A stretch of DNA of 64,000 nt from Ensifer sp. WSM1721 (lineage in GTDB: Bacteria > Pseudomonadota > Alphaproteobacteria > Rhizobiales > Rhizobiaceae): NCBI RefSeq assembly GCF_000513895.2, contig NZ_CP165782.1, forward strand, positions 2,867,501 to 2,931,500, read 5' to 3'. The translations under genes and the position numbers were made by a program. Numbering within the stretch: the stretch's first letter is position 1; each line of letters opens with the position of its first letter. A model generated the notes under the pieces. The model ran no database searches. It was not told the DNA's origin and saw only the letters and a list, made by a program, of their open reading frames with translations. Positions 37,669 to 52,993 of this stretch are shown here, in pieces.

Positions 37669-38784
37669 ATGGGCCCGTTCCCGCACGACGCACCGCCTGC
37701 AAATATCTCGGCGGACAATCCCGCCGGAACGGACGGATTCGAGTTCGTCGAATTCGCCCACCCGGAACCGGAGAAGCTCAAGGACCTCTTCAGTCGTATG
37801 GGCTACACGCCGGTTGCCAGGCACAGGACGAAGAACATCACCGTATGGCGTCAGGGCGACATCAACTACATCCTGAACGCGGAGCCTGGCTCGCATGCCA
37901 TGCGCTTCGTCGACAAGCACGGGCCCTGCGCCCCGTCGATGGCCTGGCGTGTCGTCGACGCGAAGCATGCCTTCGAGCACGCCGTTGCGAAAGGTGCCGA
38001 GCCCTATGCCGGCAATGACAAGAGCCTCGACGTGCCTGCAATCGTCGGCATTGGCGGCTCGCTTCTCTACTTCGTGGAAACCTACGGCGAAAAGGGCTCC
38101 GCCTACGAAGCCGAGTTCGAATGGCTGGGCGAGCGTGATCCGAAGCCGGCCGGCGTCGGTTTCTATTATCTCGACCACCTGACCCACAACGTCTATCGCG
38201 GCAATATGGACAAGTGGTGGGCCTTCTATCGCGAGCTGTTCAATTTCAAGCAGATCCACTACTTCGACATCGACGGTCGCATCACCGGCCTCGTCAGCCG
38301 CGCGATCACCTCGCCCTGCGGCAAGATCCGGATTCCCTTGAACGAGTCGAAGGACGACACCAGCCAGATCGAGGAATATCTGAAGAAGTACAAGGGCGAA
38401 GGCATCCAGCACATCGCCGTCGGCACCGAGGCGATCTACGACGCCGTCGACAAGCTGGCCGAGAACGGCCTCAAATTCATGCCGGGACCGCCGGAGACCT
38501 ACTACGAAATGTCGCACGAGCGCGTCCACGGCCACGAGGAACCGGTCGAACGGATGAAGGAGCACGGTATCCTGATCGACGGCGAGGGCGTGGTGAACGG
38601 CGGCATGACGAAGATCCTGCTGCAGATCTTCTCCCGCACCGTCATCGGGCCGATCTTCTTCGAATTCATCCAGCGCAAAGGCGACGAGGGCTTCGGCGAA
38701 GGCAACTTCCGCGCGCTGTTCGAATCGATCGAAGCCGATCAGATCCGCCGTGGCACCCTCAAGAATCCGCAGGCTGCCGAATAG
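37669..38784 (+). CDS. hppD: 4-Hydroxyphenylpyruvate dioxygenase
   Basis: A 371-residue iron(II) dioxygenase that converts 4-hydroxyphenylpyruvate to homogentisate, the substrate of HmgA. It has two vicinal-oxygen-chelate domains. The metal ligands fall in YYLDHLTHNVYRGNM (His), EGIQHIAVGT (His) and the C-terminal FFEFIQRKGDEGFGEGNF (Glu). The ATG at 37669 has AGAGGAGA 6 bases upstream. It ends at a strong hairpin. Confidence 0.96.
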   Translation: MGPFPHDAPPANISADNPAGTDGFEFVEFAHPEPEKLKDLFSRMGYTPVARHRTKNITVWRQGDINYILNAEPGSHAMRFVDKHGPCAPSMAWRVVDAKHAFEHAVAKGAEPYAGNDKSLDVPAIVGIGGSLLYFVETYGEKGSAYEAEFEWLGERDPKPAGVGFYYLDHLTHNVYRGNMDKWWAFYRELFNFKQIHYFDIDGRITGLVSRAITSPCGKIRIPLNESKDDTSQIEEYLKKYKGEGIQHIAVGTEAIYDAVDKLAENGLKFMPGPPETYYEMSHERVHGHEEPVERMKEHGILIDGEGVVNGGMTKILLQIFSRTVIGPIFFEFIQRKGDEGFGEGNFRALFESIEADQIRRGTLKNPQAAE

Positions 38785-38803
38785 ACGGCCGCCGCAATAC
38801 AGC

Positions 38804-38841
38804 CTCACGGCGCCGCACGTCACTTCGTGCGGCGCCGTGAG
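38804..38841 (+). terminator. Strong hairpin after hppD
   Basis: A perfect 16-bp stem, CTCACGGCGCCGCACG paired with CGTGCGGCGCCGTGAG around TCACTT, 20 bp after the hppD stop. No T-run follows, so it is a terminator of the GC-rich alphaproteobacterial kind or a 3' stabiliser. Confidence 0.7.
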
Positions 38842-38891
38842 TAGCCTTCAAGATGATAATCTCGGCGCTGCGCATGCAAAAAGGCGGCGCG

Positions 38892-39674
38892 TCAGTTGCG
38901 CCAACGCGAGGGCATGCGGAGCGAGCCGAGATCCGCTTCGCTTCTGAAGTAGCGCGACGCCGCCTCCGTCCGATTGCGCACGTTCATCTTCTTGTAGATG
39001 TTGCGAACATGCACCTTGACGGTGTTCTCGGAGAGGCCGAGCCGATCGGCGATGATCTTGTTCTGCGTACCCATGCAGATGAGATCGAGAATCTGAATCT
39101 CGCGCGCCGTCAGTACGCCTTTGCCGATGCCGGCGCCGCTTTCCAGATCGATGCTTTCACAAACCGCCTCCTGTTGCGCGACAAGACCACCGGCAGCGAG
39201 TCCTTGTGGCGCCAAACGCCTGAGCAGTGCGGCGGGAAAATGCTCTCCCCCCTTCATGAGGAGGTCGATAACCGTCAGGCAGACGTCGAGATGGAGATTG
39301 CGCGGCAGGACGCCGTGAATCAGTCCCTCGTCAACGAACCCGGCGATCGACGAGTCGAGATCGTCCGCATCCTCTACGACCAGACCGATCGCCGCCTTCG
39401 GATGAAACTCACGGATCATCCTGATGATCGATGGAAATGCCGCCGTGGGCATGCGATAGAGCATGACCAGGCTTAGGTCCACGAGATTCCCGTCCAAAAG
39501 GCCGTCGGCATCGGAAAGGCTCACGACTTCCTGATCTTGAAAACGCGCACTGATCGCCTGCGTCAGGCATTCGGCGAACAGGTCGGTCTTGGCGAGCATC
39601 AGGATCTTACTTTTCTTCTGCAATACCTTGTTGTTATCTTCAAAGTTGCTCAGACTCGAGCTCGTACGATACAT
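38892..39674 (-). CDS. LuxR-type regulator with degenerate receiver domain
   Basis: A 260-residue protein. The C-terminal LuxR/NarL helix-turn-helix (about 195-250) has LTAREIQILDLICMGTQNK, then IADRLGLSENTVKVHVRNIY. The N-terminal 120 residues have the spacing of a response-regulator receiver, but the key residues are gone. The aspartate expected three residues before MP (MLYRMPT) is Leu72, the first-strand acidic pair is replaced by AKTD, and VLPRN has Arg for the late lysine. It is probably phosphorylation-independent. GGAGGGG precedes the ATG. It lies about 2 kb from the type I secretion locus, which it may regulate; that is inference. Confidence 0.85.
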   Translation of the reverse strand: MYRTSSSLSNFEDNNKVLQKKSKILMLAKTDLFAECLTQAISARFQDQEVVSLSDADGLLDGNLVDLSLVMLYRMPTAAFPSIIRMIREFHPKAAIGLVVEDADDLDSSIAGFVDEGLIHGVLPRNLHLDVCLTVIDLLMKGGEHFPAALLRRLAPQGLAAGGLVAQQEAVCESIDLESGAGIGKGVLTAREIQILDLICMGTQNKIIADRLGLSENTVKVHVRNIYKKMNVRNRTEAASRYFRSEADLGSLRMPSRWRN

Positions 39675-39689
39675 TTACCCCTCCTTAGA

Positions 39690-39815
39690 CCCCCATATTT
39701 CTGCGGGTTTCTGACCCGTGGGGAGGGCCCAGTGCTTGAAAATTTATTCGGTTAAAAAAACGAATTTACCGTTAAGGAAAAATTCGTAATGACTAATCTA
39801 TCGTAAATATGGGGG
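39690..39815. repeat. 11-bp inverted repeat flanking the luxR-type promoter region
   Basis: CCCCCATATTT at 39690-39700 and AAATATGGGGG at 39805-39815 are exact inverted copies. The 104 bp between them are AT-rich, with a run TTAAAAAAACG. The pair lies immediately upstream of the luxR-type gene. It could be paired operators or the ends of a very small element. Confidence 0.55.
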
Positions 39816-40788
39816 ATCGCAAACCACCCAAAAGGGCTAGATGAGTGCCACATTCTCGTCTAAATCGTTCGAAAGTGAACCATTTTTGGGCTAATTGGCG
39901 GAAATACAGGCGCTAGGCCAAAGGCAATCCCGCTATCTTCTCGCTTCCAGCGGCGATCCTTTGCTTTTGACGGGTAAATGTGGCGTCACCGGCAGACGGG
40001 AAGAGCGCGCAATCGCGGCCGGTCCCGCCAACCTCCGTCGTTGGATGGGGCCCTGCGACGGCTCGCCCGCCGGGTCATGCATCCACAACCGTACTCACAA
40101 CGAATTACTGCCACAGGTGCTCCGGCGCCGGATCACGCTCCATCGGCCGAAGGGCGTTCCGATCGCTTGCCGGGCGCCTTCTTTCGTGGCTGCAACGGCG
40201 GCTGGCGATGCGCGAGCGGGAAAGCCCGTAAATCTCCAAATATTACCATTGCGTTAACGCGGAAGGCCGATTGACCTGACGACGCACCAGCGCACGAGCT
40301 GGGGGGTCGGCGCGCCGTCTCCTGCCTCGACGCATGCGCTTCGAGCGGTGATGGTCGCAGCCGCAGGGCGAGCGCCGTGAGTCCTAACTACAATTGATAG
40401 CTTTCGCTCCGTCGCATTCCGGATCACACTCCGATCGTCGCACAGGCTTTTGTGCGTCTCCGGGCAATGTCCAGCGTATCCGGAAGTATCTATATTGCGC
40501 ACATATGACTAAGCGTATGACTAAGTATTCAAACACGTAGTAATTTAGGCAGATGCCGCCAAGTATATTGAAAAGTAAAATATGGAAATCGGAACCCTTC
40601 GGTTGAACGAGAAGTTCATCTGAACTGTTAAGAGAGCCAGCGCCCCAAAAATCCCTATAAAAGATGAAAGGGTTTCGGTGCTGGCTCCCTCTTACCACAT
40701 CCTTCGTGACGAGAGCTGGGGCCTGTCCGAACGCGCCGTTAAATCTTTCCGATAGATCCAGAAAATAGCCCGGCTGCCCTGAATTCGC
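39816..40788. other. Long non-coding region before the secretion locus
   Basis: About 970 bp with no credible gene. Open frames of 95-120 codons on both strands lack ribosome sites and protein-like composition. About 40480-40600 is clearly AT-rich compared with its surroundings. I see no tRNA, transposase remnant or terminal repeat. It could hold an unrecognised small RNA or be degraded foreign DNA. Confidence 0.5.
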
Positions 40789-41271
40789 TCAGCGCGGAAA
40801 CGAGTGTCTCTCGACGATACTCCAGATCGCCCTGTTGATCTTCATGATTTGGTCGATCGCCTCGTTGATCCTCGCCACCTCCACATCGTCGATCTGTTCG
40901 ATCTTGCCATACCTGATGGTGTCCTTGCTGTCGAAGATGGCCATCAGCTGCGTGCTTGCCTGGTCACCGGTCTCATCGAACGAATAGACGCAGTGGCTGT
41001 ACTTGTTCCTGAGCTTTGCCCGTTTACCAAGCTGCTGAGTCACGGCCAGAATCTCCTGTCGGCGCTCGGGCGGCGTCTTGGCCATCTTGGCGAGCCGCTC
41101 TACGAGCTCGATGCGGGCGCGTGTCGTATTCAGCGTCAGGAAAATGATGACCGCAGTTTCCTTGTCCACATTCGCAAGGCCGGCAATCAGGTAGATGAGC
41201 AGACTTTCCGTGTTGGTCCACGTGTAGTTCAACTGTCCGATCAAGAGAAGTATCTCGTGAAATCTCTTCAT
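40789..41271 (-). CDS. HEPN-like protein A, left flank of type I secretion locus
   Basis: A 160-residue, mostly helical protein of no family I can name with certainty. It has a hydrophobic start EILLLIGQLNYTWTNTESLL, then LTLNTTRARIELVERLAK, and Arg88-Asn-Lys-Tyr-Ser-His93. R-X4-H preceded by a helix is the catalytic signature of HEPN RNases. By hand it aligns without gaps to the protein at 49420-49914, with about 85 of 160 identical residues and the same R88/H93. Its ATG overlaps the stop of a 49-codon frame (ATGA). It is transcribed away from the secretion genes. The HEPN assignment is inference from the motif and helical pattern. Confidence 0.7.
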   Translation of the reverse strand: MKRFHEILLLIGQLNYTWTNTESLLIYLIAGLANVDKETAVIIFLTLNTTRARIELVERLAKMAKTPPERRQEILAVTQQLGKRAKLRNKYSHCVYSFDETGDQASTQLMAIFDSKDTIRYGKIEQIDDVEVARINEAIDQIMKINRAIWSIVERHSFPR

Positions 41272-41417
41272 AGGCGCTGGTTGTCGTTGCCGACACCTCC
41301 GTCAGGATCACTCATGTCCACTTCCGACAGGTTTCTTCCGATTGGAGTAGCTTTGGCCTTGAAGATCGGCCGCGGCAAGTACCTCGAAAGTGGTAGCGTC
41401 CACAAAACGACTCGCAT
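41268..41417 (-). CDS. Predicted 49-residue protein coupled to HEPN-like gene A
   Basis: An ATG at 41417 on the minus strand preceded by an excellent ribosome site (GGAGGG, 5 bases away). The 49 codons give MRVVLWTLPLSRYLPRP, a basic middle FKAKATPIGRN, and an acidic tail. The stop overlaps the start of the HEPN-like gene by 4 bases, so the two would be translationally coupled. I do not recognise it. It could be an antitoxin-like partner, a leader peptide or an artefact. Confidence 0.45.
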   Translation of the reverse strand: MRVVLWTLPLSRYLPRPIFKAKATPIGRNLSEVDMSDPDGGVGNDNQRL

Positions 41418-41812
41418 GGTTTCCCTCCTATGACTCTCTCTTCCGCAATCAACCCTGAGGTGAGGTAAAAATCCCGCAGCTGCCCTGCGAGCTAATCCGA
41501 ACAGGCAGCTTACAATTTGTGCAGGTTGCAACCAGACTGCCCAGGCAAATGAACGAGCAGGGAGGCTCGGGTCCGGGAGGACCAGGATTGCGCCGGACGC
41601 GCAATGGAGGCGAGGCCCGACTGCTCCAAACAGGGGAGGACTGCTGCTACCGCGACAATCTGTGTGCGAGATCCGGGCTGCGCCAGGCCGCCCCCGCGAT
41701 CCAAATTTCATTGAAATACTTTGTTCATTTCACCCACCAGACCGCATGGCCCCAAACCGCGTGAGAGAAAAAGGCGGTTCGGCTGTCGCGGCCTCAACTT
41801 GAGGACATCTCT
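41418..41812. other. Divergent promoter region of the secretion locus
   Basis: 395 bp between the small minus-strand frame and the low-complexity exported protein. No convincing gene. It must carry promoters in both directions. GAGGA (41800-41804) before the ATG at 41813 is the ribosome site of the next gene. Confidence 0.5.
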
Positions 41813-43552
41813 ATGAGCAAGGATAAACATTTCCTGTGGCCGTGGGACAACCAAAGCCAAGATCAAGATCAGGACCAGAGCCAGCACGAGCTTCAAGCTC
41901 AGCTCGAACTTCAGAAGCAGAAGCAGGATCAGGACCAGGGGCAGGACCAAGGGCAGGATCAGGGGCAAGACCAGACGCAGTCCAGCGAGTCCTATAACCT
42001 CAACGGCAATCTGAACGGCAATGGCAATGCCAATGGAAACGCGAACGCCAACGGCAACGGGAACCTGAACGGGAACGGCAACGCCAACCTGAACGGGAAC
42101 GGCAACGCCAACCTGAACGGGAACGGCAATGCCAACCATAACGGCAACGCCAACCTTAACGCGAACCTCAACAAGAACGAGACGAAGGTCGACGTCGAAA
42201 GCAAGACCGATGTCGATGTGGACGTAGATGTCGATCTTGACCTCTCGGGGTGGGAGCCGACGGACGATGATTTTGTGGATGTCGACAATTCGACCATTCA
42301 CGGCATGGCGAGCGTCAGCTTCAAGGACATCTTGAACGACTCGCTTAATGGCTCCGGCAACGACGTTGGTAACGTCTTCAGCCAATCCGCCATCATGTCG
42401 GATGACGACCATCTGCACGACGTTTCGAACAGTGGCGTCCTGAACCAGAACGGCAACGCCAATGCCGGCTCCGCCACGTCTGACGACGGCATCGACGCCG
42501 GCGGCGACGGCGGCTCGGGTGGCGACGATGCCGATGCCGACGGCGGCAATGGCGGCGACGGTGGCAACGCACTTGGTGGCTTCGCCGGTGGTGGTAAGGC
42601 GATCGGCAGCGACGCCATCAACAATGGCTCTGCTGCCGGCGGCGATGGCCTCGGCGGCATCGCGGCAAGCGTCGGCGTCGGTACGGGCGGCACGAGCGGT
42701 AGCGCCAACGGCGGTACGGCTACCGCTGGCAACGGCGGTAACGGCGGTGCTGGCCTCGGCGTCGGACTCGGCCTCGGTGTTGGCCTCGGCGTCGGCGCGG
42801 CAGCCGGTGGCGACGGTGGCAACAGCACAGCCGGCAACGGCGGCGAGACGGGTGACGTCGAAAGCGACGACGCGAACGCTAGCGATGCCGGTAACGGCGG
42901 CGACGGTGCCGATACCGGCGACTTCTCGATTCCGATCCTGAACTTCGGCGGCGATGGCGGCGACAACGATGGCGGCAACAGCATCGCCGTTGGCAGGACC
43001 GGCAACGCCAATGGTGGCAGCTCGGGCGATGCAGGTGACGGCGGCGACGCGCTGGGCGCAGGCGTTGGCGTAGGTGCAGGCATCGGCCTCGGTGCCGGTA
43101 ACGGCGGCGGTGGTGGTGGCGGTGGCTCAGCTACCGCGAACGGCGGAAGCACCGGTGCTGCAGGTGGCGGCGTCGGGACCGGCGGAGCTGCGACCGGCGG
43201 CGACGGCGATGGCGGCCTTGCCCTCACGGGTGCATGGGCAGGCGACACCTGGGCCGGTGGCGGCGTAGCCGGTGATGCCACGGGTGGAGCTGGCGGCGCT
43301 GGTGGAGCTGGCGGCATCGCGACGACCGGGGCTGGCGGAGCTGGCGGAGCCGGCGGCACGTGGGGTTCCTACAATGGAGACGATAGTTTCCTCGAAGGAA
43401 TCTCCTCGGCAACGGCCGATGCGGTGATCGACACCAACGCCTTCAACCAGCAGATCGTGCTCGGCGCCAATCTGCAGGGCAATACCATCGACATGACGGT
43501 CGTCGGCGGCAACTACAGCAGCACGACGGTTGGCGAGGACGACGACGCCTGA
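41813..43552 (+). CDS. Gln/Asn/Gly-rich low-complexity protein, probable type I secretion substrate
   Basis: A 579-residue protein of striking composition. Residues 20-60 alternate Gln with Asp or Gly (QDQGQDQGQDQ). Residues 62-125 are Asn-Gly-Asn-Ala-Asn-Leu repeats. Next comes an Asp-Val run (DVDVDVDVDLDLSGW) and, from about 215 to 520, a Gly-rich region with Asp, Ala, Asn and Ser. The last 65 residues are of normal complexity (FNQQIVLGANLQGNTIDMTV) and end in GEDDDA. There is no Sec signal, membrane helix or cysteine. It is not a canonical RTX protein, since GGxGxDxxx nonapeptides are not regular. Its place before an ABC/membrane-fusion pair suggests C-terminal-signal export. A surface fibre or matrix role is inference. 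Confidence 0.8.
   Translation: MSKDKHFLWPWDNQSQDQDQDQSQHELQAQLELQKQKQDQDQGQDQGQDQGQDQTQSSESYNLNGNLNGNGNANGNANANGNGNLNGNGNANLNGNGNANLNGNGNANHNGNANLNANLNKNETKVDVESKTDVDVDVDVDLDLSGWEPTDDDFVDVDNSTIHGMASVSFKDILNDSLNGSGNDVGNVFSQSAIMSDDDHLHDVSNSGVLNQNGNANAGSATSDDGIDAGGDGGSGGDDADADGGNGGDGGNALGGFAGGGKAIGSDAINNGSAAGGDGLGGIAASVGVGTGGTSGSANGGTATAGNGGNGGAGLGVGLGLGVGLGVGAAAGGDGGNSTAGNGGETGDVESDDANASDAGNGGDGADTGDFSIPILNFGGDGGDNDGGNSIAVGRTGNANGGSSGDAGDGGDALGAGVGVGAGIGLGAGNGGGGGGGGSATANGGSTGAAGGGVGTGGAATGGDGDGGLALTGAWAGDTWAGGGVAGDATGGAGGAGGAGGIATTGAGGAGGAGGTWGSYNGDDSFLEGISSATADAVIDTNAFNQQIVLGANLQGNTIDMTVVGGNYSSTTVGEDDDA
41936..42133 (+). repeat. In-frame tandem repeats in the low-complexity gene
   Basis: A 12-base unit (CAGGACCAGGGG and variants, coding QDQG) repeats about four times near 41928-41975. 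A 24-base unit beginning AACCTGAACGGGAACGGCAA repeats three times at 42062-42133, with one substitution in the last copy. Near-identity at the DNA level points to recent slippage-type expansion. Confidence 0.8.
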
Positions 43553-43601
43553 CCGTAAAGCGACGTCACCGATCCGCATTTTTCGGAATCGGGCATTGAA
43601 A

Positions 43602-43632
43602 GGGACTGCGCGGGTTCGCCCCGCGCAGTCCC
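43602..43632 (+). promoter_or_regulatory. 13-bp hairpin between the two exported-protein genes
   Basis: GGGACTGCGCGGG and CCCGCGCAGTCCC form a perfect stem around TTCGC, 50 bp after the low-complexity gene and 30 bp before the next start. No T-run follows directly. It may allow only part of the transcription to continue, giving more of the first protein than of the transporter. Confidence 0.7.
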
Positions 43633-43662
43633 ACAGCACTGAAATAAAAAAGGGGGCTGACA

Positions 43663-45675
43663 ATGACCCTGTATTTCGACAAGACGACCGAGGCGATCTC
43701 CCACTTCATCGGCCTCTTCGCAATCGCTCTTGAAGAAATTCGTCTGCGTGACGCCTACGAAGAATTCAAGGCCCTCCAGAAAGCGCAGGACGAGCCGCCG
43801 GAGCTCCCTTCCGTGCCGGTCACGGTGAAGGCACCCTATGAGCTCAAGGACTTCGACCCCCGTATTCCCTACCGACCAGCCGAGCCGGATCTGGTCGAGT
43901 TGAACCCGAGGCTGTATCCCGGCCTTCGCCCACCCGAAATACCGGTTTCGCGCGAGGCTGACGGCATCGACGCTCGCGAGCTCGATAGCCGGCACGGATG
44001 GGCCGCCTCATCATCAGCCGGCACGCCCGAATTTCACATCGATCCGCCCGGATCGACGGCCGTGTACGCTTCTCAACAGATATGGCTCTCAGACAATGAT
44101 GCCGTCAGCCTTGGCGGTCATGGGTTGCGATTCGATCCTCAGCTCGACAACACCGCGCTCATGAACGGTCTCGTCGAAGCGGCACGGCAGATCTCTCCGA
44201 TCGGCGCCGAAGAGATTCCCGGCTCTCCCGAAGAAATCGCCACCTTCGTCACCACTGTGGCGCGAGAGCTTGATGCCTTCTCTGCGGAAAGTGACGGAGA
44301 AGAAGATACCGTCGTGGTGAAATCCGATACGCTCGAAGGAAGCTTCGTCAACGGAGAGCTCGTAGAGGACGCACCGCGTCTCGAGGACTACCTGCCGCCA
44401 CCGGAGGAAACGCCGGAGGACAAGCCGGCGACCTCCAATCACGCCAGCGGTAACTTCAAGGCAGGCGAGGGTCATGTCTCGATCGAGGCATCGGTCGAAC
44501 TGGAAGCCGGCGGCAACACGCTGGTCAATTCCGTCCAGCTGACGAGCAACTGGCTACAGTCGCATGTGCTCGCCGTTGCCGGCGACCATGTCGAGCTCAA
44601 TGCGATCGTGCAGATAAACGTCCTCTGCGACAACGATCTCTTGAGCCCCGCTCTCAATGGCTGGAACCTCGACCCGGGCAAGCCGACCGAGGCTTTCAAC
44701 ATCGCGATGTTCAAGCATCTCGATCCCGACCCCGGCAACGCAGAGCAGGCCGGACCCGGCGGCTTCCCCGCCGTTTGGGCCGTCACCGAGATCAAGGGCG
44801 ACCTCTTGATCATGAACTGGTTCGAGCAGTTCACCTTCATGACCGATGAGGACACGGCCATCCTGGCGTCCGCTGGCGCGACGGCTTCGATCATCACCGG
44901 CAATAACACCGCGATCAACAATGTCTCGCTCGCGGAGCTCGGACATTACTACGATCTCATCTTCATCGGTGGAAATGTCTACGACGCCAACATCATTCAG
45001 CAGTTGAACATCCTGCTGGACAACGATCTTGTCGGCGCCGTCGAAGGTTTCGGCACCAGCGGCAAAGGTTCGGCCTCCACCGATGGAAACCTGCTCTGGA
45101 ACGAAGCGGGCGTCGTTGAAGCCGGTGGCGCGACCTCCGTCAAGCCGATGCCGAAATCCTACCTCGACGCTTTCGGCGACCTCGCAAGCGGAAAAAAATC
45201 GCTCCCGGACGATGTGCTGCAGGATGGCGCCTTCGCCGGCATGAGCGGGCTGAGGGTGCTTTATATTTCAGGCGACCTGATCAACCTCAACTACGTCAAG
45301 CAAACCAACATTCTGGGCGATAGCGACGCGGTCGCGCTGGCGATGAGCAAGCTTGCGGCCCATCCGGAGGCAGACTGGACGATTTCGACAGGTTCGAACG
45401 CATTGGTCAACTACGCCGGCATCGTCGATGTCGACGCCGGCGGGACCATCTACACGGGCGGCCAGGCCTACTCGGACGAAATCCTGATCCAGGCCGAACT
45501 GATCAAAACCGAACCTTATCTCGGTGGTCAGGATCCCGATGCGCTCGTCAACGAAGCGGTGGCTTTTCTCGGTGAGGACATGATGGCCCCCGACCCGGGC
45601 CCGCAGCCGCCGGATCACGCACCGCCTGCAATCGATACGGCGAATGCCGACCCCATGCATAGCATGCTCGCCTGA
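43663..45675 (+). CDS. Large repeat protein of the type I secretion locus, unknown function
   Basis: A 670-residue acidic protein I cannot place in a named family. The N-terminus (about 1-45) is helical, TTEAISHFIGLFAIALEEIR. A Pro-rich stretch (45-115) follows. The second half holds diverged repeats of about 90-130 residues, each ending in a hydrophobic strand, a GG or GD turn and a signature: IVQINVLCDNDLL, IIQQLNILLDNDLV, YVKQTNILGDSDAV. The last (EILIQAELI) is degenerate. Related pieces occur earlier (QQIWLSDNDAV) and in the C-terminus of the preceding protein. It has no Sec signal and ends HSMLA. It is likely exported by, or an accessory of, the transporter that starts at its stop codon. 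Confidence 0.78.
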   Translation: MTLYFDKTTEAISHFIGLFAIALEEIRLRDAYEEFKALQKAQDEPPELPSVPVTVKAPYELKDFDPRIPYRPAEPDLVELNPRLYPGLRPPEIPVSREADGIDARELDSRHGWAASSSAGTPEFHIDPPGSTAVYASQQIWLSDNDAVSLGGHGLRFDPQLDNTALMNGLVEAARQISPIGAEEIPGSPEEIATFVTTVARELDAFSAESDGEEDTVVVKSDTLEGSFVNGELVEDAPRLEDYLPPPEETPEDKPATSNHASGNFKAGEGHVSIEASVELEAGGNTLVNSVQLTSNWLQSHVLAVAGDHVELNAIVQINVLCDNDLLSPALNGWNLDPGKPTEAFNIAMFKHLDPDPGNAEQAGPGGFPAVWAVTEIKGDLLIMNWFEQFTFMTDEDTAILASAGATASIITGNNTAINNVSLAELGHYYDLIFIGGNVYDANIIQQLNILLDNDLVGAVEGFGTSGKGSASTDGNLLWNEAGVVEAGGATSVKPMPKSYLDAFGDLASGKKSLPDDVLQDGAFAGMSGLRVLYISGDLINLNYVKQTNILGDSDAVALAMSKLAAHPEADWTISTGSNALVNYAGIVDVDAGGTIYTGGQAYSDEILIQAELIKTEPYLGGQDPDALVNEAVAFLGEDMMAPDPGPQPPDHAPPAIDTANADPMHSMLA

Positions 45676-45695
45676 TGGGAGCGCGGGAGGAGATG

Positions 45696-48023
45696 ATGAC
45701 CGACCACCGCGATCCGCCCTGGGAGCAATTCGCAACCGACGGCGACGAGGCTGCGGACGAGGCGGAGTTCTCCCCGCAGACCCCGGCCGCGGATGCTGCC
45801 TGCCAGCAACTGCTCCGCAGAATCGACCGCACGGAAAATGTCTTGGATCACAGTGTCAAGGAGTTCGACAAGGTGGTTGATCAGCTTCGCGGCGCGGCGG
45901 CCGCAAGAATTCGCCAGGAAACAGATCGTGCAGATACGGCCGCACCGCCTGCGTCCGAACGGAGCGCGACGGCGATGGCGGAGGTCATGCAACAGACAAG
46001 GACGCCCGCGCTAAAGGCCGATAACGCGAACACCGCCGAAATCGTGCCCGGCCCGCGAGGCGGCAGTGCCGAGCAGCGTCTGCCCGTCCAGGAGGTCCGG
46101 CCCGAACCACGCTTCGAAAAGCCGAGCATCGAGCCAAGGTCCGAACTCAAGGATAAGTCCTCCATACCGGGGATGGTCGTGATCGACGGCGACCGTGGCC
46201 CGATCAAGGCTGAGCCTAGATCTCCCGACAAAGGCGGCTCCTCGGGCGGGGGAGGTGGCGGTGGCAATGGCGGAGGCGGAGGCGTTTTCCATAAGCGCCT
46301 CGGCCCGGTCGATTTTTCCGCCAGCCTTAAGGCAGGTCTGCGGGCGATCAAGCAGAACCTGATGGTGGTGATGCTGTTCACGCTCGCCACCAACGTGCTC
46401 GTGCTCGCAATACCGATCTATCTGTTTCAGATATCGGACCGGGTGCTTACCAGCCGCTCGATCGACACGCTGGTCATGCTCACCGTGCTGATCGTTGGTG
46501 CGGTGATTCTGCAGGCCGTTTTCGACGGAATTCGCCGCATGATCCTCATGCGGACGGCAGTCGAGGTTGCCGCCCAGTTGGGTGCGCCGATCCTCAGCGC
46601 GGCCGCCCGAGCCTCGCTGCACAGCAACGGGCGGGAATATCAGACGCTTGGAGACCTGCAGCAGCTTCGCTCCTTTCTGGTGTCGAGCACCCTGCTTTCC
46701 TTCCTCGATGCTCCGATCGCGCCGTTCTTCGTCCTGGCGGTCTTCCTGATCCACCCGCATCTCGGCTCGATCGTCATCGCCTCGGCCCTGCTCCTGCTCA
46801 TCGTCACCTTGTTGAACCAGAAGGCGACGGCGGCCCCCTTTGGAGAGGCCAACACATTCCAGAGCAAGGCGAACCTCCACCTCGACTCGATGTCGCGCAA
46901 TTCGCAGATCATCAATGCGCTGGCGATGATCCCGGAAGCTGTGCGCATCTGGGGCAAGGACATGGCGGGCTCGCTCAAGGCCCAAGTCACGGCGCAGGAC
47001 CGCAACATAGCCCTTGCCTCGCTCTCAAAGGCCGTACGGCTGCTAACCCAGGTCATGATGCTCGGCTGGGGAGCTCATCTCGCGCTCGATGGCAAGCTAA
47101 CGGGCGGGATGGTCATTGCCGCATCGATCGTCGCCGGCCGGGCGCTCGGCCCGATCGAGGGAGCGATCGAAGGCTGGCACCAGGTCATCCAGTCGCGCGC
47201 CGCCTATTCGCGCATCGCTTCGCTGCTTCAGAGCTCGCCGCTCAATTTCGAGCGACTGAAACTGCCCCGTCCCGAGGGACGTCTCGACGTCGAGCGGCTG
47301 CTTTTCGTCCCGCAGGGCACCAAGCGTGTCGTCCTCAACGGAGTGACCTTCTCGCTCAGCCCCGGCGACTCCCTTGCCGTCATCGGCAGTTCCGGCGCGG
47401 GCAAGACGACGCTCGGCAAGATGCTCGTCGGCTCCATCCTGCCCACTTCCGGCAATGTCCGGCTCGATCTCATGGACCTGCGGAACTGGGATCAGCGTCA
47501 GTTCGGCGAAAATATCGGCTACCTCCCGCAGGACGTTCAGCTCTTTCCGGGAACGATCAAGGCCAATATCGCTCGGATGCAGGAGGACGCCAGCGACGCC
47601 GACATCTATGCCGCCGCCAAGCTTGCCGACGTGCACGACATGATCGCCCTGCTGCCGCACGGATACGAGACCTTCGTCGCGGCCGACGGATCGCCGCTCT
47701 CCGGCGGGCAAAAGCAGCGCGTCGCGCTCGCCCGGGCTTTTTTCGGCAACCCGCGCATGGTGGTGCTCGACGAGCCCAATTCCAATCTCGACAGCGCCGG
47801 CGAGACCGCGCTGACGCGCGCGCTTGCCCATGCCAGGCAGCAGAAAATCACCGTCATTACCATTACCCAGCGGCCCGCCCTCCTCAACAGCGTTGACAAG
47901 GTCCTGCTCCTGGTGAACGGCACCGTGGCCCTTTTCGGCATGCGCCAGGACGTCCTGAAGGCCCTCTCCGCGCGCGGCATGAATCTCGAGGGCAATCCGC
48001 TCGACCACAATCAGCTTACGTAG
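45696..48023 (+). CDS. Type I secretion ABC transporter (permease-ATPase, PrtD/HlyB type)
   Basis: A 775-residue inner-membrane half-transporter. Membrane helices begin near residue 222 (VMLFTLATNVLVLAIPIYLF). The ATPase domain has Walker A GSSGAGKTTLGKM (near 564), the signature LSGGQKQRVALARAFF (near 668) and Walker B MVVLDEPNSNLDS. The first 210 residues are unusual: a hydrophilic, Pro/Ala-rich and partly coiled extension (VLDHSVKEFDKVVDQLRG) ending in a Gly run. This is absent in PrtD and is not a C39 peptidase. The start is the second ATG of an ATGATG pair, 5 bases after GGAGG; an ATG overlapping the previous stop (45675) is possible. Confidence 0.93.
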   Translation: MTDHRDPPWEQFATDGDEAADEAEFSPQTPAADAACQQLLRRIDRTENVLDHSVKEFDKVVDQLRGAAAARIRQETDRADTAAPPASERSATAMAEVMQQTRTPALKADNANTAEIVPGPRGGSAEQRLPVQEVRPEPRFEKPSIEPRSELKDKSSIPGMVVIDGDRGPIKAEPRSPDKGGSSGGGGGGGNGGGGGVFHKRLGPVDFSASLKAGLRAIKQNLMVVMLFTLATNVLVLAIPIYLFQISDRVLTSRSIDTLVMLTVLIVGAVILQAVFDGIRRMILMRTAVEVAAQLGAPILSAAARASLHSNGREYQTLGDLQQLRSFLVSSTLLSFLDAPIAPFFVLAVFLIHPHLGSIVIASALLLLIVTLLNQKATAAPFGEANTFQSKANLHLDSMSRNSQIINALAMIPEAVRIWGKDMAGSLKAQVTAQDRNIALASLSKAVRLLTQVMMLGWGAHLALDGKLTGGMVIAASIVAGRALGPIEGAIEGWHQVIQSRAAYSRIASLLQSSPLNFERLKLPRPEGRLDVERLLFVPQGTKRVVLNGVTFSLSPGDSLAVIGSSGAGKTTLGKMLVGSILPTSGNVRLDLMDLRNWDQRQFGENIGYLPQDVQLFPGTIKANIARMQEDASDADIYAAAKLADVHDMIALLPHGYETFVAADGSPLSGGQKQRVALARAFFGNPRMVVLDEPNSNLDSAGETALTRALAHARQQKITVITITQRPALLNSVDKVLLLVNGTVALFGMRQDVLKALSARGMNLEGNPLDHNQLT

Positions 48024-48029
48024 GCGACC

Positions 48030-49367
48030 ATGACAGACACAGTCAAAGTTTACGACCTCCAATGGTATGCAGAGGTTCCGCGGTCGATCTGGAGGCAGAC
48101 CATCGCCGGGCTGGTGCTCATGGCCATCACGTTCGGGGGCTTCGGCCTGTGGGCATTCACGGCGCCGCTGGCAGCAGCCGTCATAGCGCAGGGAAGCTTC
48201 GTCGCCACCGGCCAGAACAAGATCATCCAACACCTTGAAGGAGGGATCATCGAGGACATCCTGGTGAGCGAAGGCGACCACGTAAACGCCGACCAGCCGC
48301 TCGTCCGGTTGGACGAGACGGCAGCGCTCGCCAATGAACGTCAGCTGTTTCTGCGGCGCGCCCGCCTTGAGGCGATCGTCGCCCGCCTCACGGCCCAGGT
48401 TCAGGGTCGCGACCAGATTGCCCTGCCGGACATTCTTGCCGCCCATCTCGATGATCCGGAGCTCGTCCCGATTATCGAGAGCCAGGAACTCAATTTTGAG
48501 GCCTGGAAAAGCAAGCTGGAGAGCGAAGTCGGGCTGTTCAGACAGAACATCGAGGGCTTTCGGTTCCGCGCCGAAGGCTACCAGCGCCAACTCGAAGCCG
48601 TTCGCCGGCAGCACGCCCTCCTCGAGGAGGAGCTGACCGGCAAGAAGTCTCTCCTCGAAAAGAACTTGATCCGCAGAACGGAGATCAAGTCGATCCAGCG
48701 GGCGATCGCCGACGCCGATGGCCAGATCGGGAGACTGATGGCTGAGATTTCGGAGACGGGCGCCCAGATCCTGAAGCAGGAGCAACAGGTCCGGCAAACT
48801 GAGGAAACCTATCGTGAGGGCGCGCTTGAAGAATTGCAGAAGGTGGAGGCCGAACTGGACACGGTCCGCGAGCAGTTGAGAGGTGCGGCGAGCGTGCTGC
48901 GTCGCGCGACGATAAACGCGCCGGTTAGCGGCACGGTCGTCCGGCTCTACTATCACACGCCCGGCGGCGTCATCGAAAGCGGCAAGCCCATTATGGAGAT
49001 CCTGCCGTCGGACGTCCCTCTCATCATCGAGGCGCAGGTGCTGCGCACCGAGATCGACAGCGTCAAGATCGGCCAGAAGGCGACCGTCAGGCTTACGGCG
49101 CTGAACCAACGGACGACGCCGGTCCTAAACGGGGAGGTCTACTATGTTTCTGCCGACTCGTTGCCGGATCCCGCAAACAACGGGGCACAGGACATCTATC
49201 TCGCCAGGGTCAATCTGCCCGTAAGTGAACTCACGCGAATTCCAGGCTTCGCGCCAACTCCGGGAATGCCCGCCGAGATCCTCATCCAAACGGCCGAACG
49301 AACCTTCTTCGACTACCTGACGAAACCGATCCGGGACAGCATGGCGCGCGCCTTTATGGAACGATGA
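48030..49367 (+). CDS. Type I secretion membrane fusion protein (HlyD/PrtE type)
   Basis: A 445-residue periplasmic adaptor. A short cytosolic tail and one membrane helix (about 24-43) precede a split lipoyl-like domain (IQHLEGGIIEDILVSEGD and VSGTVVRLYYHTPGGVIESG). Between them is a long coiled-coil hairpin (about 100-290). The C-terminal beta-barrel ends with the DYLTKPIRDSMARAFMER segment typical of PrtE-like proteins. It lies 6 bp after the ABC gene. No TolC-type outer-membrane gene is nearby, so a shared one is presumably used. Confidence 0.94.
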   Translation: MTDTVKVYDLQWYAEVPRSIWRQTIAGLVLMAITFGGFGLWAFTAPLAAAVIAQGSFVATGQNKIIQHLEGGIIEDILVSEGDHVNADQPLVRLDETAALANERQLFLRRARLEAIVARLTAQVQGRDQIALPDILAAHLDDPELVPIIESQELNFEAWKSKLESEVGLFRQNIEGFRFRAEGYQRQLEAVRRQHALLEEELTGKKSLLEKNLIRRTEIKSIQRAIADADGQIGRLMAEISETGAQILKQEQQVRQTEETYREGALEELQKVEAELDTVREQLRGAASVLRRATINAPVSGTVVRLYYHTPGGVIESGKPIMEILPSDVPLIIEAQVLRTEIDSVKIGQKATVRLTALNQRTTPVLNGEVYYVSADSLPDPANNGAQDIYLARVNLPVSELTRIPGFAPTPGMPAEILIQTAERTFFDYLTKPIRDSMARAFMER

Positions 49368-49419
49368 AGAAGCGAAGACCAGTCCTGGCGCTGCCCCTCA
49401 GGACCGCTTGGAGATCGCC

Positions 49420-49914
49420 ATGGCGGCTACACACGATGTGCTTTTGCTCGTTGGTCGCCTGAACTATGTCTGGACCAATACGGAAAGCCTTCTGATCTAT
49501 GTCATCGCCCACCTTCTGAAGGTGGAGAAGGAATCGGCGATCATCGTCTTCCTGACGCTGAACACCACGCGCGCGCGCATCGATTTGACCGAGCGTCTGG
49601 CGAAGCTCCCGACGACGCCCGCCGAGACTCGCGACGAGGTACTTGCGATCACGGAACGGCTCAAACTGCAAGCAAAGGTCAGAAATAAGTACAATCATTG
49701 CATCTACTCCTTCGATGAGCAGGGGGAGATTTCGAGCACGCAGATGATGCGGCTGGTCGAAGGCGAAAAGGACGTGCGCTACGGCAAGGTCGAGCAGGTC
49801 GATGCCCGCGAGCTGGAGCGCCTCGACAACGCAATCCGCGAGATTGCCGATATCAGCAAGCGTCTCTGGGCCTTCATTCGCTCGCGGCCCAACTTCGACG
49901 AGCGTTCGATCTAG
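49420..49914 (+). CDS. HEPN-like protein B, right flank of type I secretion locus
   Basis: A 164-residue paralogue of the protein at 40789-41271, with 66 of the first 100 residues identical in a gap-free hand alignment. It keeps LNYVWTNTESLLIYVIA, FLTLNTTRARIDLTERLAK and the Arg88-Asn-Lys-Tyr-Asn-His93 motif, then CIYSFDEQGE and RYGKVEQVD. The ATG at 49420 has GGAG 6 bases upstream and gives exactly the same N-terminal length as the paralogue; a TTG four codons earlier is rejected. It lies 52 bp after the membrane fusion gene on the same strand, so it is probably in the secretion operon. Confidence 0.75.
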   Translation: MAATHDVLLLVGRLNYVWTNTESLLIYVIAHLLKVEKESAIIVFLTLNTTRARIDLTERLAKLPTTPAETRDEVLAITERLKLQAKVRNKYNHCIYSFDEQGEISSTQMMRLVEGEKDVRYGKVEQVDARELERLDNAIREIADISKRLWAFIRSRPNFDERSI

Positions 49915-50241: not shown

Positions 50242-51480
50242 ATGATAGTAGAAGTCATCGAATACACTAAAGATTTTGAAGCGATCCGTGACAACTGGAA
50301 CGGAATATATCTCTCAGACCCCGAGTCTCATCCTTTCCTGTCCTGGGCCTGGCTGAAACAATACCTGCCGTGCAAAGAGCGATGGTTCATCCTCGCCTTG
50401 AGGCAGCAGCAGACCGGCGGGCACTACCAGGCTTTCCTGCCGCTTGAGGTGGCGACCTATCAGGATCAGGGAACAGGACTCTTCTGCGACGAGATCCTGA
50501 TGATCGGCAACCACGGCATCGGTCATGGCGGTTTCCTCTGCGTGCCGGGCCTGGAAGACGATGCGGCGGATGCATTCGCCGGCTTCATCGCGACCGAAAA
50601 CTGGACGAGCATCCGGTTCGATTGCTGCAGCCCCACTCCAGCCCGGCTGGAGCGGTTGCTCGGCGCCTTCCCCGACGGGCCGTTCGCCCGGGTGGAGAAC
50701 GCCGATGAAGGGGAGAAGGTAAATCCTTTCGGGCGGCGCATCCACAGCGTCCTCGTCAGAACCAGGACGGGCCGAAACCTGCACGACATGCTGAACCGGC
50801 GCAGCATCGATATCGTGTTCGAACGCGCGGTGGCGCTACATACGCAAGGCAGAATCGATGAGGCGGAGGCCGGATATCGACAGGTGATCCGTACCATGCC
50901 TGGGCATGTTCAGGCGCGGCGTGGGCTCGCGCTGCTCTGCAGCGACAAGAGTGACCATGCGGAGGCGGAGCATCTTTATCGCGGTCTGCTGTCGATCGCG
51001 CCGGATGCCGATGACGTTCGGCATCGACTCGGAGACTCGCAAGTGGCGCAAGCCTGCTATTGCGAGGCGAGCAAGACCTTCGAAAGCCTCCTTACCCGCT
51101 ACCCGCATCGCGGCCTCGTGCGATACAAGCTGGCCGTCGCACTTCTCGCTGCGGGGCGGAAAGACGCCGCCATAGCCGTGTTCTCGAGCTTCGAGGACAT
51201 CTCCTCCGACGATCCGGATCATATTCGCTGCAAAGCGAGGGCGCGGGAGGTCTTGTGGCGCCTGACGGCGACTGCCAGGGGCGCGGAAGAAGAGGAACCG
51301 GACGATCGAGCGTTCCAGCGGCCGATCTCCTTCGTACCGACCGGAAGCTCTCCCTCAGCCCGCTTCCTGACGGTGACGTCGCTATTGCCGCTGGAGCCTT
51401 CGCTGCCCGGCGGCGCATGGGCGCGCCTGCATGCCGGACCTACCCTCTACGGCTGCAAAGGCTCACGGCTGAAGCATTGA
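50242..51480 (+). CDS. GNAT-like domain fused to TPR repeats
   Basis: A 412-residue protein. Residues 1-170 resemble the N-terminal half of CelD/BcsL-type acetyltransferases (IRDNWNGIYLSDPESHPFLSWAWLKQYL, shown split: IRDNWNGIYLSDPES, then HPFLSWAWLKQYL), but the acetyl-CoA-binding half is missing. From about 190 to 345 there are tetratricopeptide-like repeats (FERAVALHTQGRIDEAEAGY, YRGLLSIAPDADD and FESLLTRYPHRG). The last 65 residues are Pro/Ser-rich and look unlike either domain. It ends 66 bp before a RIME-type element. It looks like a natural fusion or a remodelled remnant. No function can be assigned. Confidence 0.65.
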   Translation: MIVEVIEYTKDFEAIRDNWNGIYLSDPESHPFLSWAWLKQYLPCKERWFILALRQQQTGGHYQAFLPLEVATYQDQGTGLFCDEILMIGNHGIGHGGFLCVPGLEDDAADAFAGFIATENWTSIRFDCCSPTPARLERLLGAFPDGPFARVENADEGEKVNPFGRRIHSVLVRTRTGRNLHDMLNRRSIDIVFERAVALHTQGRIDEAEAGYRQVIRTMPGHVQARRGLALLCSDKSDHAEAEHLYRGLLSIAPDADDVRHRLGDSQVAQACYCEASKTFESLLTRYPHRGLVRYKLAVALLAAGRKDAAIAVFSSFEDISSDDPDHIRCKARAREVLWRLTATARGAEEEEPDDRAFQRPISFVPTGSSPSARFLTVTSLLPLEPSLPGGAWARLHAGPTLYGCKGSRLKH

Positions 51481-51658: not shown

Positions 51659-52702
51659 TTACGCGCGCTTCTGGATAATGCCGTAGACGATGTTTCGGTT
51701 GGCGCCGAACACCAACTGCGCATCGACCGCGTTACGGTCGACGCTCGCATTGATAATTCTCCACATGTCCGCCTCCGAACGCAGCAACAAGGCCCAGTTC
51801 ATAAACGTTTCCATGTAGCCATCGTCGCTGATGTCCTGCGCGAAATTGGCAAAGAGGAAGACCCCATTGGGCTTCAGCATTTGCAGGCATCTCTTCGTGA
51901 GCTTCACCGCCACCTTGTCGGCAAGATAGTCGTAAAGTCCGGCGGCGTAGATGAAATCGAATTGACCCAGATTGTAGCCCTTGCCAAGAAGACCGCGGAC
52001 GGAACCGTCGATCGCCTCGACGCAGGTTCCCCGGAAGTCGCGCGCGATCAAGCCGACGCTCAAAGGATCCTGATCGAGCGCAATCCAGCGTTTTATCCGC
52101 TGCTCCTTGAGCGCGACGGAGCTGTCGGCCTCGCGCAGATGTCCGGCCGCGATCGTCAGGATTTCCGTTTCAGGGCCCCGTTCGGCCGCAATTGTATCAA
52201 CATACCGCGTCAGGAGATCGCGACGCTCCCTGACTGCGACCGACGACGGCGCGTCCTTGGTGTAATCATAAAGTGCGCGCCCCAGTGGAGACGCGTTTGC
52301 GATTTCCTTGGAGACGCTGGGATGACCATAGATGAAGTCGATCAGCTGCGCGTCGCCGGAATAGCCGCGCGGTTTCTCGAAAGACCAGCGCGTGAACGGA
52401 TCCTGATGAAAGAAATGAGACAGCGGGTGGTTCTGTACAATCGGGATCAGCGCTTGCCAGACGCTTGCGTCAAACCGGCGCCGCATCTCGTGAAGCGCCC
52501 CGATGAGATGATGGATGATCGCAGCCGGCTCCCGGCCCTGCTCGACCTGTTGCTGAGCGATCATGAGCGCAAGAGCGAGTTCGGCTCTGCCCGTCGCCAA
52601 CTGGTCGTCGTGGCGATCGGTCTTAGGCGATGAAAGCTCGGTTGAGATGGCAATGGGGGTGATAAGGCTTTCGCCGTCGAAAACAATCTGATTTTGGGTC
52701 AC
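51659..52702 (-). CDS. Class I SAM-dependent methyltransferase-like protein
   Basis: A 347-residue protein. Residues 60-170 are a helical domain with HHLIGALHEMRRRFDASVW and RGYSGDAQLIDFIYGHP. A Rossmann-type methyltransferase fold follows: ILTIAAGHLREAD stands in for motif I, IALDQDPLSV ends strand 2, and FDFIYAAGLYDYL matches the post-I region. LKPNGVFLFANFA is the usual strand before the C-terminal beta-hairpin. Proteins of this form are sometimes annotated as makers of a 3-hydroxypalmitate methyl ester signal; I cannot support that here. It is divergent from a GGDEF-EAL gene across about 290 bp of AT-rich DNA. Confidence 0.65.
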   Translation of the reverse strand: MTQNQIVFDGESLITPIAISTELSSPKTDRHDDQLATGRAELALALMIAQQQVEQGREPAAIIHHLIGALHEMRRRFDASVWQALIPIVQNHPLSHFFHQDPFTRWSFEKPRGYSGDAQLIDFIYGHPSVSKEIANASPLGRALYDYTKDAPSSVAVRERRDLLTRYVDTIAAERGPETEILTIAAGHLREADSSVALKEQRIKRWIALDQDPLSVGLIARDFRGTCVEAIDGSVRGLLGKGYNLGQFDFIYAAGLYDYLADKVAVKLTKRCLQMLKPNGVFLFANFAQDISDDGYMETFMNWALLLRSEADMWRIINASVDRNAVDAQLVFGANRNIVYGIIQKRA

Positions 52703-52993
52703 GCGAGACTCATCTGTTAATAGATCATTAACAATATGCGCAGGAGGACGTTGCGTGCCAATCCTCCCTCCAAGTTTTCAAATAATATGGTTAACAGCCG
52801 TTCGACTGACCTATTTCGCTACACCAGGACGCGCGTAATTGATCTTTTGCAATTCAGCAAAACTTAATCGACATGTACTAATGTGCCGAATAATGCTGCA
52901 TGTCCTCAGTAGTTGCCCGCCCAAGAGGCAGTTACGGGACGTTTCATTACGCTTGTGGAAGAGACAACTCGGGCTCTACAAGAAGACGCAAAA

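Follow-up and report, generated by a model that had tools for sequence, protein, structure and literature searches.

A conserved type I export locus in Ensifer sp. WSM1721 with candidate matrix cargo, a structured leader RNA and a HEPN-like protein

Why should a protein-export locus carry two closely related copies of a small HEPN-like gene, one at each end, and what might the exporter between them carry? The question arises from a 64,000-nucleotide stretch of the Ensifer sp. WSM1721 genome (NZ_CP165782.1, positions 2,867,501 to 2,931,500; hereafter, the window). An initial annotation described here a low-complexity protein (LCP), a repeat protein (REP), an ABC transporter and an HlyD-family membrane fusion protein, bracketed by two HEPN-like paralogues (HEPNa and HEPNb). 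Our overall reading, to which we give a probability of roughly 0.6, is that the locus encodes an export system dedicated to a pair of matrix or fibre proteins (LCP and REP) and mostly lacking RTX repeats, under the control of a LuxR-family regulator and an RNA switch, with the HEPN-like protein acting on RNA.

Conservation of the module across genomes

The initial annotation proposed that these genes form one functional module, and held that the neighbourhood would be a chance one if the flanking paralogues usually occurred without the secretion genes, or the large proteins without the transporter. Neither pattern was found. We used an order panel of 297 genomes, a class panel of 289 and a phylum panel of 299; the panels overlap, with the window's genome in all three and six more of the eight REP-carrying phylum-panel genomes also in the order panel. 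Across the order panel, REP was present in 25 genomes, a HEPN-like gene in 26 and both in 24; one HEPN-like match without REP (G261) was weak (E = 5.7e-4). REP occurred in two class-panel genomes, both with a HEPN-like gene, while six further genomes without REP gave one partial HEPN-like match (G362, E = 1.8e-23) and five weak ones. The phylum panel gave REP in eight genomes, a HEPN-like gene in nine and both in eight, and all nine genomes belong to the window's class.

Gene order was equally stable. When up to 20 kb was fetched around 24 REP matches, the order REP-ABC-HlyD was kept in 24 of 24 loci, and a HEPN-like gene was present in 21. Two of the three loci without it (L032 and L042) are cut off at their beginning by a contig end, and their genomes carry a HEPN-like gene near the end of another contig: in L179 a LuxR gene is ~4 kb away, and L180 also holds LCP and the first part of REP. 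The third is L054, from genome G108. We also compared 80 named loci, almost wholly from Rhizobiaceae and with truncated contigs among them; they are the top 80 of 534 relatives when sorted by HEPN similarity, with HEPNb of the window as reference. The HEPN-like gene lay directly 3' of HlyD in 77 of these. ABC was found in 77, REP in 67, LuxR in 69 and a GNAT/TPR gene in 50, and the LCP C-terminus was detected in 67, counting stubs in L085 and L088. The 13 loci without REP comprise 10 contigs starting inside the operon and three deletion derivatives, which are also the three loci where the HEPN-like gene stands apart from the secretion genes. No further family was common to most of 25 gene maps, which were drawn with a codon-model gene caller because shadow open reading frames (ORFs) in GC-rich DNA had upset a clustering of the raw ones; this caller missed or clipped some genes (e.g., HEPN in L031). 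LCP, REP, a PrtD-type ABC exporter, HlyD, one HEPN-like protein per cassette and usually LuxR thus make up a conserved alphaproteobacterial module, of which we are nearly certain.

Some loci depart from the common layout. The deletion derivatives, L057 (S. medicae USDA1037), L085 and L088, have lost REP, ABC and HlyD; LuxR, the leader and the HEPN-like gene are still there, and LCP persists in short form or as a stub. Eight loci from other families (L045-L049 and L051-L053) carry a small gene of ~173 residues between the HEPN-like gene and LCP, with no Pfam match in the one member tested. Five of these eight hold another gene, an IS1595-type zinc ribbon (PF12760) in the one tested, perhaps a domesticated transposase piece. 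LCP genes form a tandem pair ahead of REP in L039-L041 and L172. A Sulfitobacter REP orthologue (L199, 8998-11106) bears the annotation "type I secretion protein ATPase", which is probably mistaken and borrowed from its neighbour.

Layout of the locus and origin of its two HEPN-like genes

The features of the locus in the window are as follows.

38892-39674, minus strand: LuxR-family regulator of resident type (PF00196, 3.9e-21; 82% identity to S. saheli L056)
40375-40695, plus strand: resident-type intergenic DNA, its end forming the left breakpoint (78% DNA identity to L056; L057-L059, L064 and L071 also matched)
40631-40707, plus strand: relic LCP leader RNA of the resident Sinorhizobium type, not followed by an LCP gene (R1 and R2 matches, sequence inspection and local alignment to L056)
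40789-41271, minus strand: HEPNa, HEPN-like protein that arrived with the plasmid-type cassette (groups with L196 and L200; 81-82% identity)
41728-41812, plus strand: present LCP leader, predicted to form an outer helix, an inner hairpin and, at the Shine-Dalgarno sequence, the hairpin CCTCA-ACT-TGAGG (single-sequence fold prediction only)
41813-43552, plus strand: LCP, low-complexity protein rich in Q/N/G/D with a conserved C-terminal block; candidate cargo
43663-45675, plus strand: REP, repeat protein with a mostly beta predicted core and a conserved C-terminal motif; candidate cargo
45675-48023, plus strand: PrtD-type ABC exporter, ToaD orthologue, with a Gly-rich N-terminal extension of ~220 residues (TIGR01842, residues 222-764 of 782)
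48030-49367, plus strand: HlyD-family adaptor, ToaE orthologue (TIGR01843, 9.2e-121)
49361-49410: right breakpoint of the cassette exchange (plasmid-type best match stops at 49361; resident HEPN match starts at 49410-49420)
49420-49914, plus strand: HEPNb, resident HEPN-like protein (93% identity to S. saheli, 55-56% to HEPNa)
50242-51480, plus strand: GNAT/TPR protein, here without the Acetyltransf_6 domain (neighbour in 50 of 80 loci)

The genes lay where the initial annotation had placed them, and its transporter families held: the ABC protein matched the PrtD type (TIGR01842) at 4.7e-211 with 702 bits (cut-off 510), and HlyD matched TIGR01843 with 404 bits (cut-off 209). The adaptor gene adjoins the exporter gene, and both qualify as members of a type I pair. 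The single direction of transcription described earlier applies from LCP through REP, ABC and HlyD to HEPNb; HEPNa is divergent. The locus also reaches beyond 40789-49914, to LuxR on the left, in which Pfam found only a GerE DNA-binding domain, and to GNAT/TPR on the right. LCP, REP, HEPNa and HEPNb gave only chance-level rows in Pfam, NCBIfam, PADLOC, PHROGs and PDB, where PHROGs and PADLOC were queried with these four proteins only and PDB was compared by single sequence for HEPNa and REP and by profile for both families.

HEPNa and HEPNb are 56% identical over 153 residues, in line with the close relationship first noted, and they belong to different groups. With support of 98/96, HEPNa clusters with the genes from L196 (E. 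adhaerens p-1) and L200 (S. chiapasense pA), and the ABC protein clusters with the same two loci at 100/100. HEPNb falls in the other large group (support 87/92), with S. saheli nearest. The DNA map divides along the same lines. Resident homology covers 38001-39895, 40375-40695 and 49410 onward, and plasmid-type sequences are the best match at 40789-41265 and 41743-49361; the ABC and HlyD genes of the two types match each other at ~70-73%. The relic leader, which is of resident type and not followed by an LCP, sits immediately ahead of the left breakpoint.

Because the trees, identities, DNA map and relic leader agree in this way, we read the HEPN pair as the scar of a cassette exchange. A plasmid-type cassette, HEPNa-LCP-REP-ABC-HlyD, almost certainly replaced the resident LCP-REP-ABC-HlyD, with breakpoints near 40695/40788 and 49361/49410. 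What is left of the resident locus, judged from these homologies, is LuxR, the relic leader and HEPNb. The HEPN-like gene, which groups like ABC with L196 and L200, came across together with its exporter. The bracketing pair therefore did not hold up as a design feature of the module: among the 80 named loci, it recurs only in the near-identical Ensifer aridi LMR001 (L055), the nearest named locus, whose HEPNb is 100% identical and whose DNA is 92.7% identical over 14.6 kb. Whole cargo-plus-exporter cassettes are thus exchanged while the resident regulator stays.

Exporter, candidate cargo and leader RNA

Although the initial annotation knew of no named system with this composition, the transporter pair does have a name. 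In Rhizobium leguminosarum 3841, a 2008 study named toaDE (RL0072/RL0071) as a type I secretion system by prediction and called it "enigmatic"; the same study already reported that the surroundings of toaD are syntenic in S. meliloti and A. tumefaciens (PMC2275737, available text). We found three PrtD-type ABC proteins above the family cut-off in strain 3841, at 91.5, 671 and 3854 kb, the first of which is the module's exporter. Because this order fits RL0072, RL0623 and RL3658, the module's ABC and HlyD are very probably the same genes as toaDE, identified by gene order rather than locus tag. ToaD identity to A. tumefaciens was given there as 86%, vs. 77% here for the whole ABC ORF with its variable extension included. 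The parts of PMC2275737 available to us report that no gene within 10 kb of toaD encodes a known type I substrate and that no toaD-dependent protein was found, and do not describe LCP and REP as cargo, the HEPN-like gene or the leader RNA. In the open-access literature, with most subscription journals outside it, "toaD" and "type I secretion" occurred together only in that paper, and no paper we found described the combination of this transporter with cargo, HEPN and leader RNA; to that extent, the initial judgement stands. The module also shares the TIGR01842 and TIGR01843 families with PrsDE/PrtD-type exporters of RTX or Rap cargo, but differs from them in its few or absent cargo RTX repeats, its Gly-rich ABC extension, its HEPN-like partner and its leader RNA. 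The extension occupies ~220 residues (DNA 45675-46337), ends in a Gly-rich linker and differs greatly in length among the relatives listed; it may possibly be a cargo-docking tether.

LCP and REP are predicted, with good confidence, to be the cargo of the adjoining exporter. The earlier description of both proteins proved accurate. In a set of 403 called genes of at least 100 residues from the window and the loci of 24 relatives, the 17 genes richest in glutamine plus asparagine (Q+N; best 80-residue stretch) were all LCP genes, although some LCPs (e.g., L039 and L051) were no higher than ordinary genes. The low-complexity text differs by lineage (DQDQKQDQ, NLNGNGN, NDNSQDND, GGDGGNGG and YDWSYDSKSYSDND) while the C-terminal block stays constant, and the LCP ORF of S. 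meliloti 4H41, at only 199 residues, lacks the repeats. REP contains at least five internal units that partially recognise one another by profile, and its model has a mostly beta core (mean predicted local distance difference test score, pLDDT, 65 overall and higher in the core). Its C-terminus is conserved, with Asp at -8 in 86 of 91 sequences and a preceding stretch that is variable and of low model confidence, an arrangement that would look like a type I signal. RTX repeats are usual in type I cargo without being obligatory. Nonapeptides of this kind were rare here (3 of 97 LCP ORFs and 2 of 96 REP ORFs), and the GGxGxDx(hydrophobic) form was absent from the window's LCP and REP.

What the two proteins might build is suggested by their composition. 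Repeats with spaced N, Q and G are common to the candidate cargo, curli (CsgA) and Fap (FapC), although no sequence homology to those systems was detected and the secretion route is different. LCP and REP likely form an extracellular matrix fibre or adhesin. The locus lies among polysaccharide genes in two Sulfitobacter plasmids and beside a GGDEF-EAL gene in the window, neighbours that would suit a matrix role without proving it. According to an Agrobacterium biofilm review, data on protein as part of the structure of the mature A. tumefaciens matrix were still lacking in 2014 (PMC4018554, available text). One REP-unit profile scored above 5 bits on 49 of 91 LCP C-termini vs. 9 of 455 shuffled sequences, the other four profiles being weaker; this is only a hint of LCP-REP homology. 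For a transporter whose 2008 description named no substrate, LCP and REP rather than RTX proteins are the candidate cargo.

LCP is preceded by a leader of ~80 bases. Its outer helix is termed P1 and its inner hairpin H1; a second hairpin, H2, takes in the Shine-Dalgarno sequence. Model R1, built on 29 leaders, gave one match (E ≤0.08) in each of 69 Rhizobiaceae loci out of 69 (29 in training, 40 not) and in L038; among the other 25 sources, it matched weakly in the window relic, L034 and L036 and not at all in 22. Whole-genome searches returned one strong copy each: the relic in the window's genome and the LCP leader in strain 3841. For the relic, the R1 match (40634-40687, E = 0.16 in 1.86 Mb) is the fair value, since the E-value of the R2 match (40631-40707) is flattered by the relic's presence in the R2 training set; its identity is also backed by plain likeness to the S. 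saheli leader. The single R2 row for L047 is off target. Rfam gave no matches at the gathering score in six loci totalling 107,424 bases, one of which (L055/L001 type) lacks the standard leader before LCP.

Pairing was then assessed by alignment. In alignment A7 (74 rows, 66 distinct), 96% of cells were paired, compared with 33-57% when the structure was slid, 7 of 13 pairs showed double changes and there were 50 double-change cells vs. a shuffled mean of 14.5, the alignment having been fitted to the structure. Covariation was thinner in a plain 29-row alignment (2 double-change cells vs. 0.2), on which RNAalifold put H2 in the wrong place. In 68 of 70 leaders, some bases belong to both P1 and H2, and the median energy difference favours P1 by 3.3 kcal/mol, with 29 of 70 within 3; these energies take H2 as the best-scoring candidate per sequence and omit four A7 rows (the window relic, L034, L036 and an off-target L072 row). 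Of 26 distinct loops, 16 allow both of the outer two pairs of H2 vs. 9.9 after shuffling (4 of 2000 shuffles as high), where only distinct CTCC...GGAG loops were kept, others and duplicates being dropped, and the shuffling ignores relatedness; the third outer position, which speaks the other way, is paired in only 9 of 26.

Two hairpin scans extended the comparison. With free loop length, Shine-Dalgarno hairpins with stems of at least 5 were found in 81 of 93 leaders and also in 51 of 132 control genes, a weak discrimination, bettered by the outer-pair count above; LCP starts were chosen by a Shine-Dalgarno rule, some by eye, and L133 was omitted from this test. Related loops in a hairpin located 27-49 bases ahead of the start codon occurred in 25 of 31 diverse leaders vs. 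19 of 398 control genes, a contrast softened by a motif derived partly from the leaders scanned and by close relatives among the 31 (e.g., L034-L036; L049 with L051). The stems of these hairpins were quite different, and two Sulfitobacter leaders were among the 25. The six misses were the window's present leader, L031, L050, L053, L060 and L081. The present leader (41728-41812) was also unmatched by R1 and R2.

These comparisons establish the leader as a conserved structured RNA in Rhizobiaceae, and it looks like a new RNA family there, one that probably has relatives both in further bacterial families and in the Rhodobacterales. That it works as a switch for LCP translation is a somewhat favoured interpretation. 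P1 around H1 would free the Shine-Dalgarno sequence and the competing H2 would hide it, a pairing scheme that gives direct predictions for reporter tests. Separately, a DNA block, TA-x-CCC-x-AATTG, is conserved in 17 aligned LuxR-LCP intergenic regions (L103 and relatives) some hundreds of bases upstream of LCP and is a candidate regulator site.

The HEPN-like protein and competing explanations

An R-N-x3-H motif is kept in 108 of 109 HEPN-like sequences, the exception being the partial relative in G362, and it fits the HEPN pattern Rx4-6H with a polar residue after R. The model (pLDDT 85) is a helical bundle with helices at 4-23, 25-33, 37-46, 50-61, 68-96 and 129-154; R88, N89 and H93 lie at the end of helix 68-96, followed by a hairpin and the last helix. 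These features are shared with the HEPN superfamily as described in the available part of PMC3710099: the motif ends a long helix, with a polar residue after R, an insert before and a hairpin after, the matching of helices being our own assignment. The protein is a predicted metal-independent ribonuclease. The superfamily includes MtlR-like operon regulators (PMC3710099, same part); the module protein differs from the superfamily in its tie to an exporter. In L034-L036 and on Sulfitobacter and Shinella plasmids, the HEPN-like gene and luxR share at least a few bases, whereas in Rhizobium the HEPN-like gene stands behind HlyD; a regulatory role would fit both positions. No paper combining "HEPN domain" with "type I secretion" was found in the same literature. 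HEPN proteins are known mainly from defence and toxin systems, and a HEPN-like protein attached to an exporter widens the family's range. We put the chance that it acts on RNA at about even, and that it acts on the LCP leader as a good deal lower.

Taken together, the proposed system would work as follows. LCP and REP would be the exporter's own cargo, REP the ordered partner and LCP a prion-like, fast-evolving bulk subunit. LuxR would provide transcriptional control and the leader translational control of this sticky cargo, with the HEPN-like protein cutting or binding the leader or another transcript, so that the aggregation-prone LCP would be made only when it could be exported. The strictest version is no more than tentative: a bistable leader would gate translation of a prion-like subunit of the fibre, and a HEPN ribonuclease dedicated to the system would read or cut that leader, matching synthesis to export capacity. 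If true, this would be the first HEPN enzyme known to us with a role confined to an export pathway, and the leader would be the first switch RNA linked to a type I cargo.

Several results weigh against this picture. In strain 3841, a toaD mutant could not be told from wild type by its biofilm ring, glycanase, motility or nodulation, nor by protein gels of the supernatant (PMC2275737, available text), and for this reason export of any cargo by ToaDE is no more than predicted. Structure prediction, which the initial annotation had suggested for these proteins, gave the helical bundle and the mostly beta REP but no significant fold match for either model, and no HEPN entry among the fold rows listed. 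The HEPN-like family had no significant Pfam or PDB match and no Pfam HEPN family at threshold, HEPN_Cthe2314 being weakly matched by 3 of 16 members (best E = 0.011). The likeness to a fibre would rest on composition and weak fold rows, with FapC (E = 0.37) and CsgA (E = 0.74), both non-significant, among the top Foldseek rows of REP. LCP and REP share motifs, but their profile-profile (hhalign) probability of at most 19% is not significant. The best 15-residue hydrophobic mean in the N-terminal stretch was 1.57 for REP, 1.97 for HlyD and -1.43 for LCP, and by this crude test the moderately hydrophobic start of REP would be compatible with a Sec-type signal. Outside Rhizobiaceae, the RNA models match only L034-L036, and the plasmid-type leaders L196-L200 were unmatched in the R2 search. 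G294 has a strong HEPN-like match with REP absent by profile also, and G108 has a weak, shorter REP-like variant without HEPN. Finally, no result links the HEPN-like protein physically to the leader.

This last point counts for the alternative that the leader is read by a general regulator of the Hfq or CsrA type, or by temperature, with an unrelated HEPN-like target. Hfq binds A-R-N runs, and H1 loops such as AGAAGAU and GAGAUGAGA resemble these. The single strong leader copy in each of two genomes would suit a dedicated reader instead, weakly, and we hold this alternative to be a serious possibility that nonetheless falls short of probable. It is rather unlikely that the HEPN-like protein is a secretion chaperone or pilot that keeps LCP or REP unfolded and hands it over to the exporter. 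The predicted protein is a small helical bundle, matches no catalytic HEPN family significantly, and its gene is co-inherited and exchanged together with cargo and exporter, as a chaperone's might be; yet a chaperone would not need the R, N and H kept so consistently, and the gene is sometimes coupled to luxR rather than to the operon.

Bacteriocins are exported by type I systems. HEPN proteins are often toxins (PMC3710099, available part), so a toxin-delivery or bacteriocin system, with the HEPN-like proteins as toxin, antitoxin or immunity factor, was also considered, as the initial annotation had raised immunity and protein delivery. This now seems very improbable: LCP and REP had no toxin-domain match, no toxin or antitoxin family was matched among the nine window proteins, a nucleotidyltransferase partner of HEPN-MNT type included, and PADLOC offered no support, its best HEPNa row being JetA (E = 0.008, 12.8 bits), with none for the other proteins queried. 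A chance neighbourhood, for which one could cite LuxR in only 69 and GNAT/TPR in only 50 of the 80 loci (truncated contigs included), is negligibly probable given gene presence and order common to many genomes.

Methyltransferase-like and GGDEF-EAL genes lie beside the module at 51659-55000, the GGDEF-EAL domain call being a reading of the sequence; because a methyltransferase is found at the same place in only 7 of 80 named loci, we place both outside the conserved core. The GNAT/TPR protein lacks Acetyltransf_6 in the window and in L055 (412 residues), whereas the domain is present in L103 (559 residues) and L107 (554 residues), and similarly short GNAT/TPR ORFs of 401-433 residues occur in other Sinorhizobium loci.

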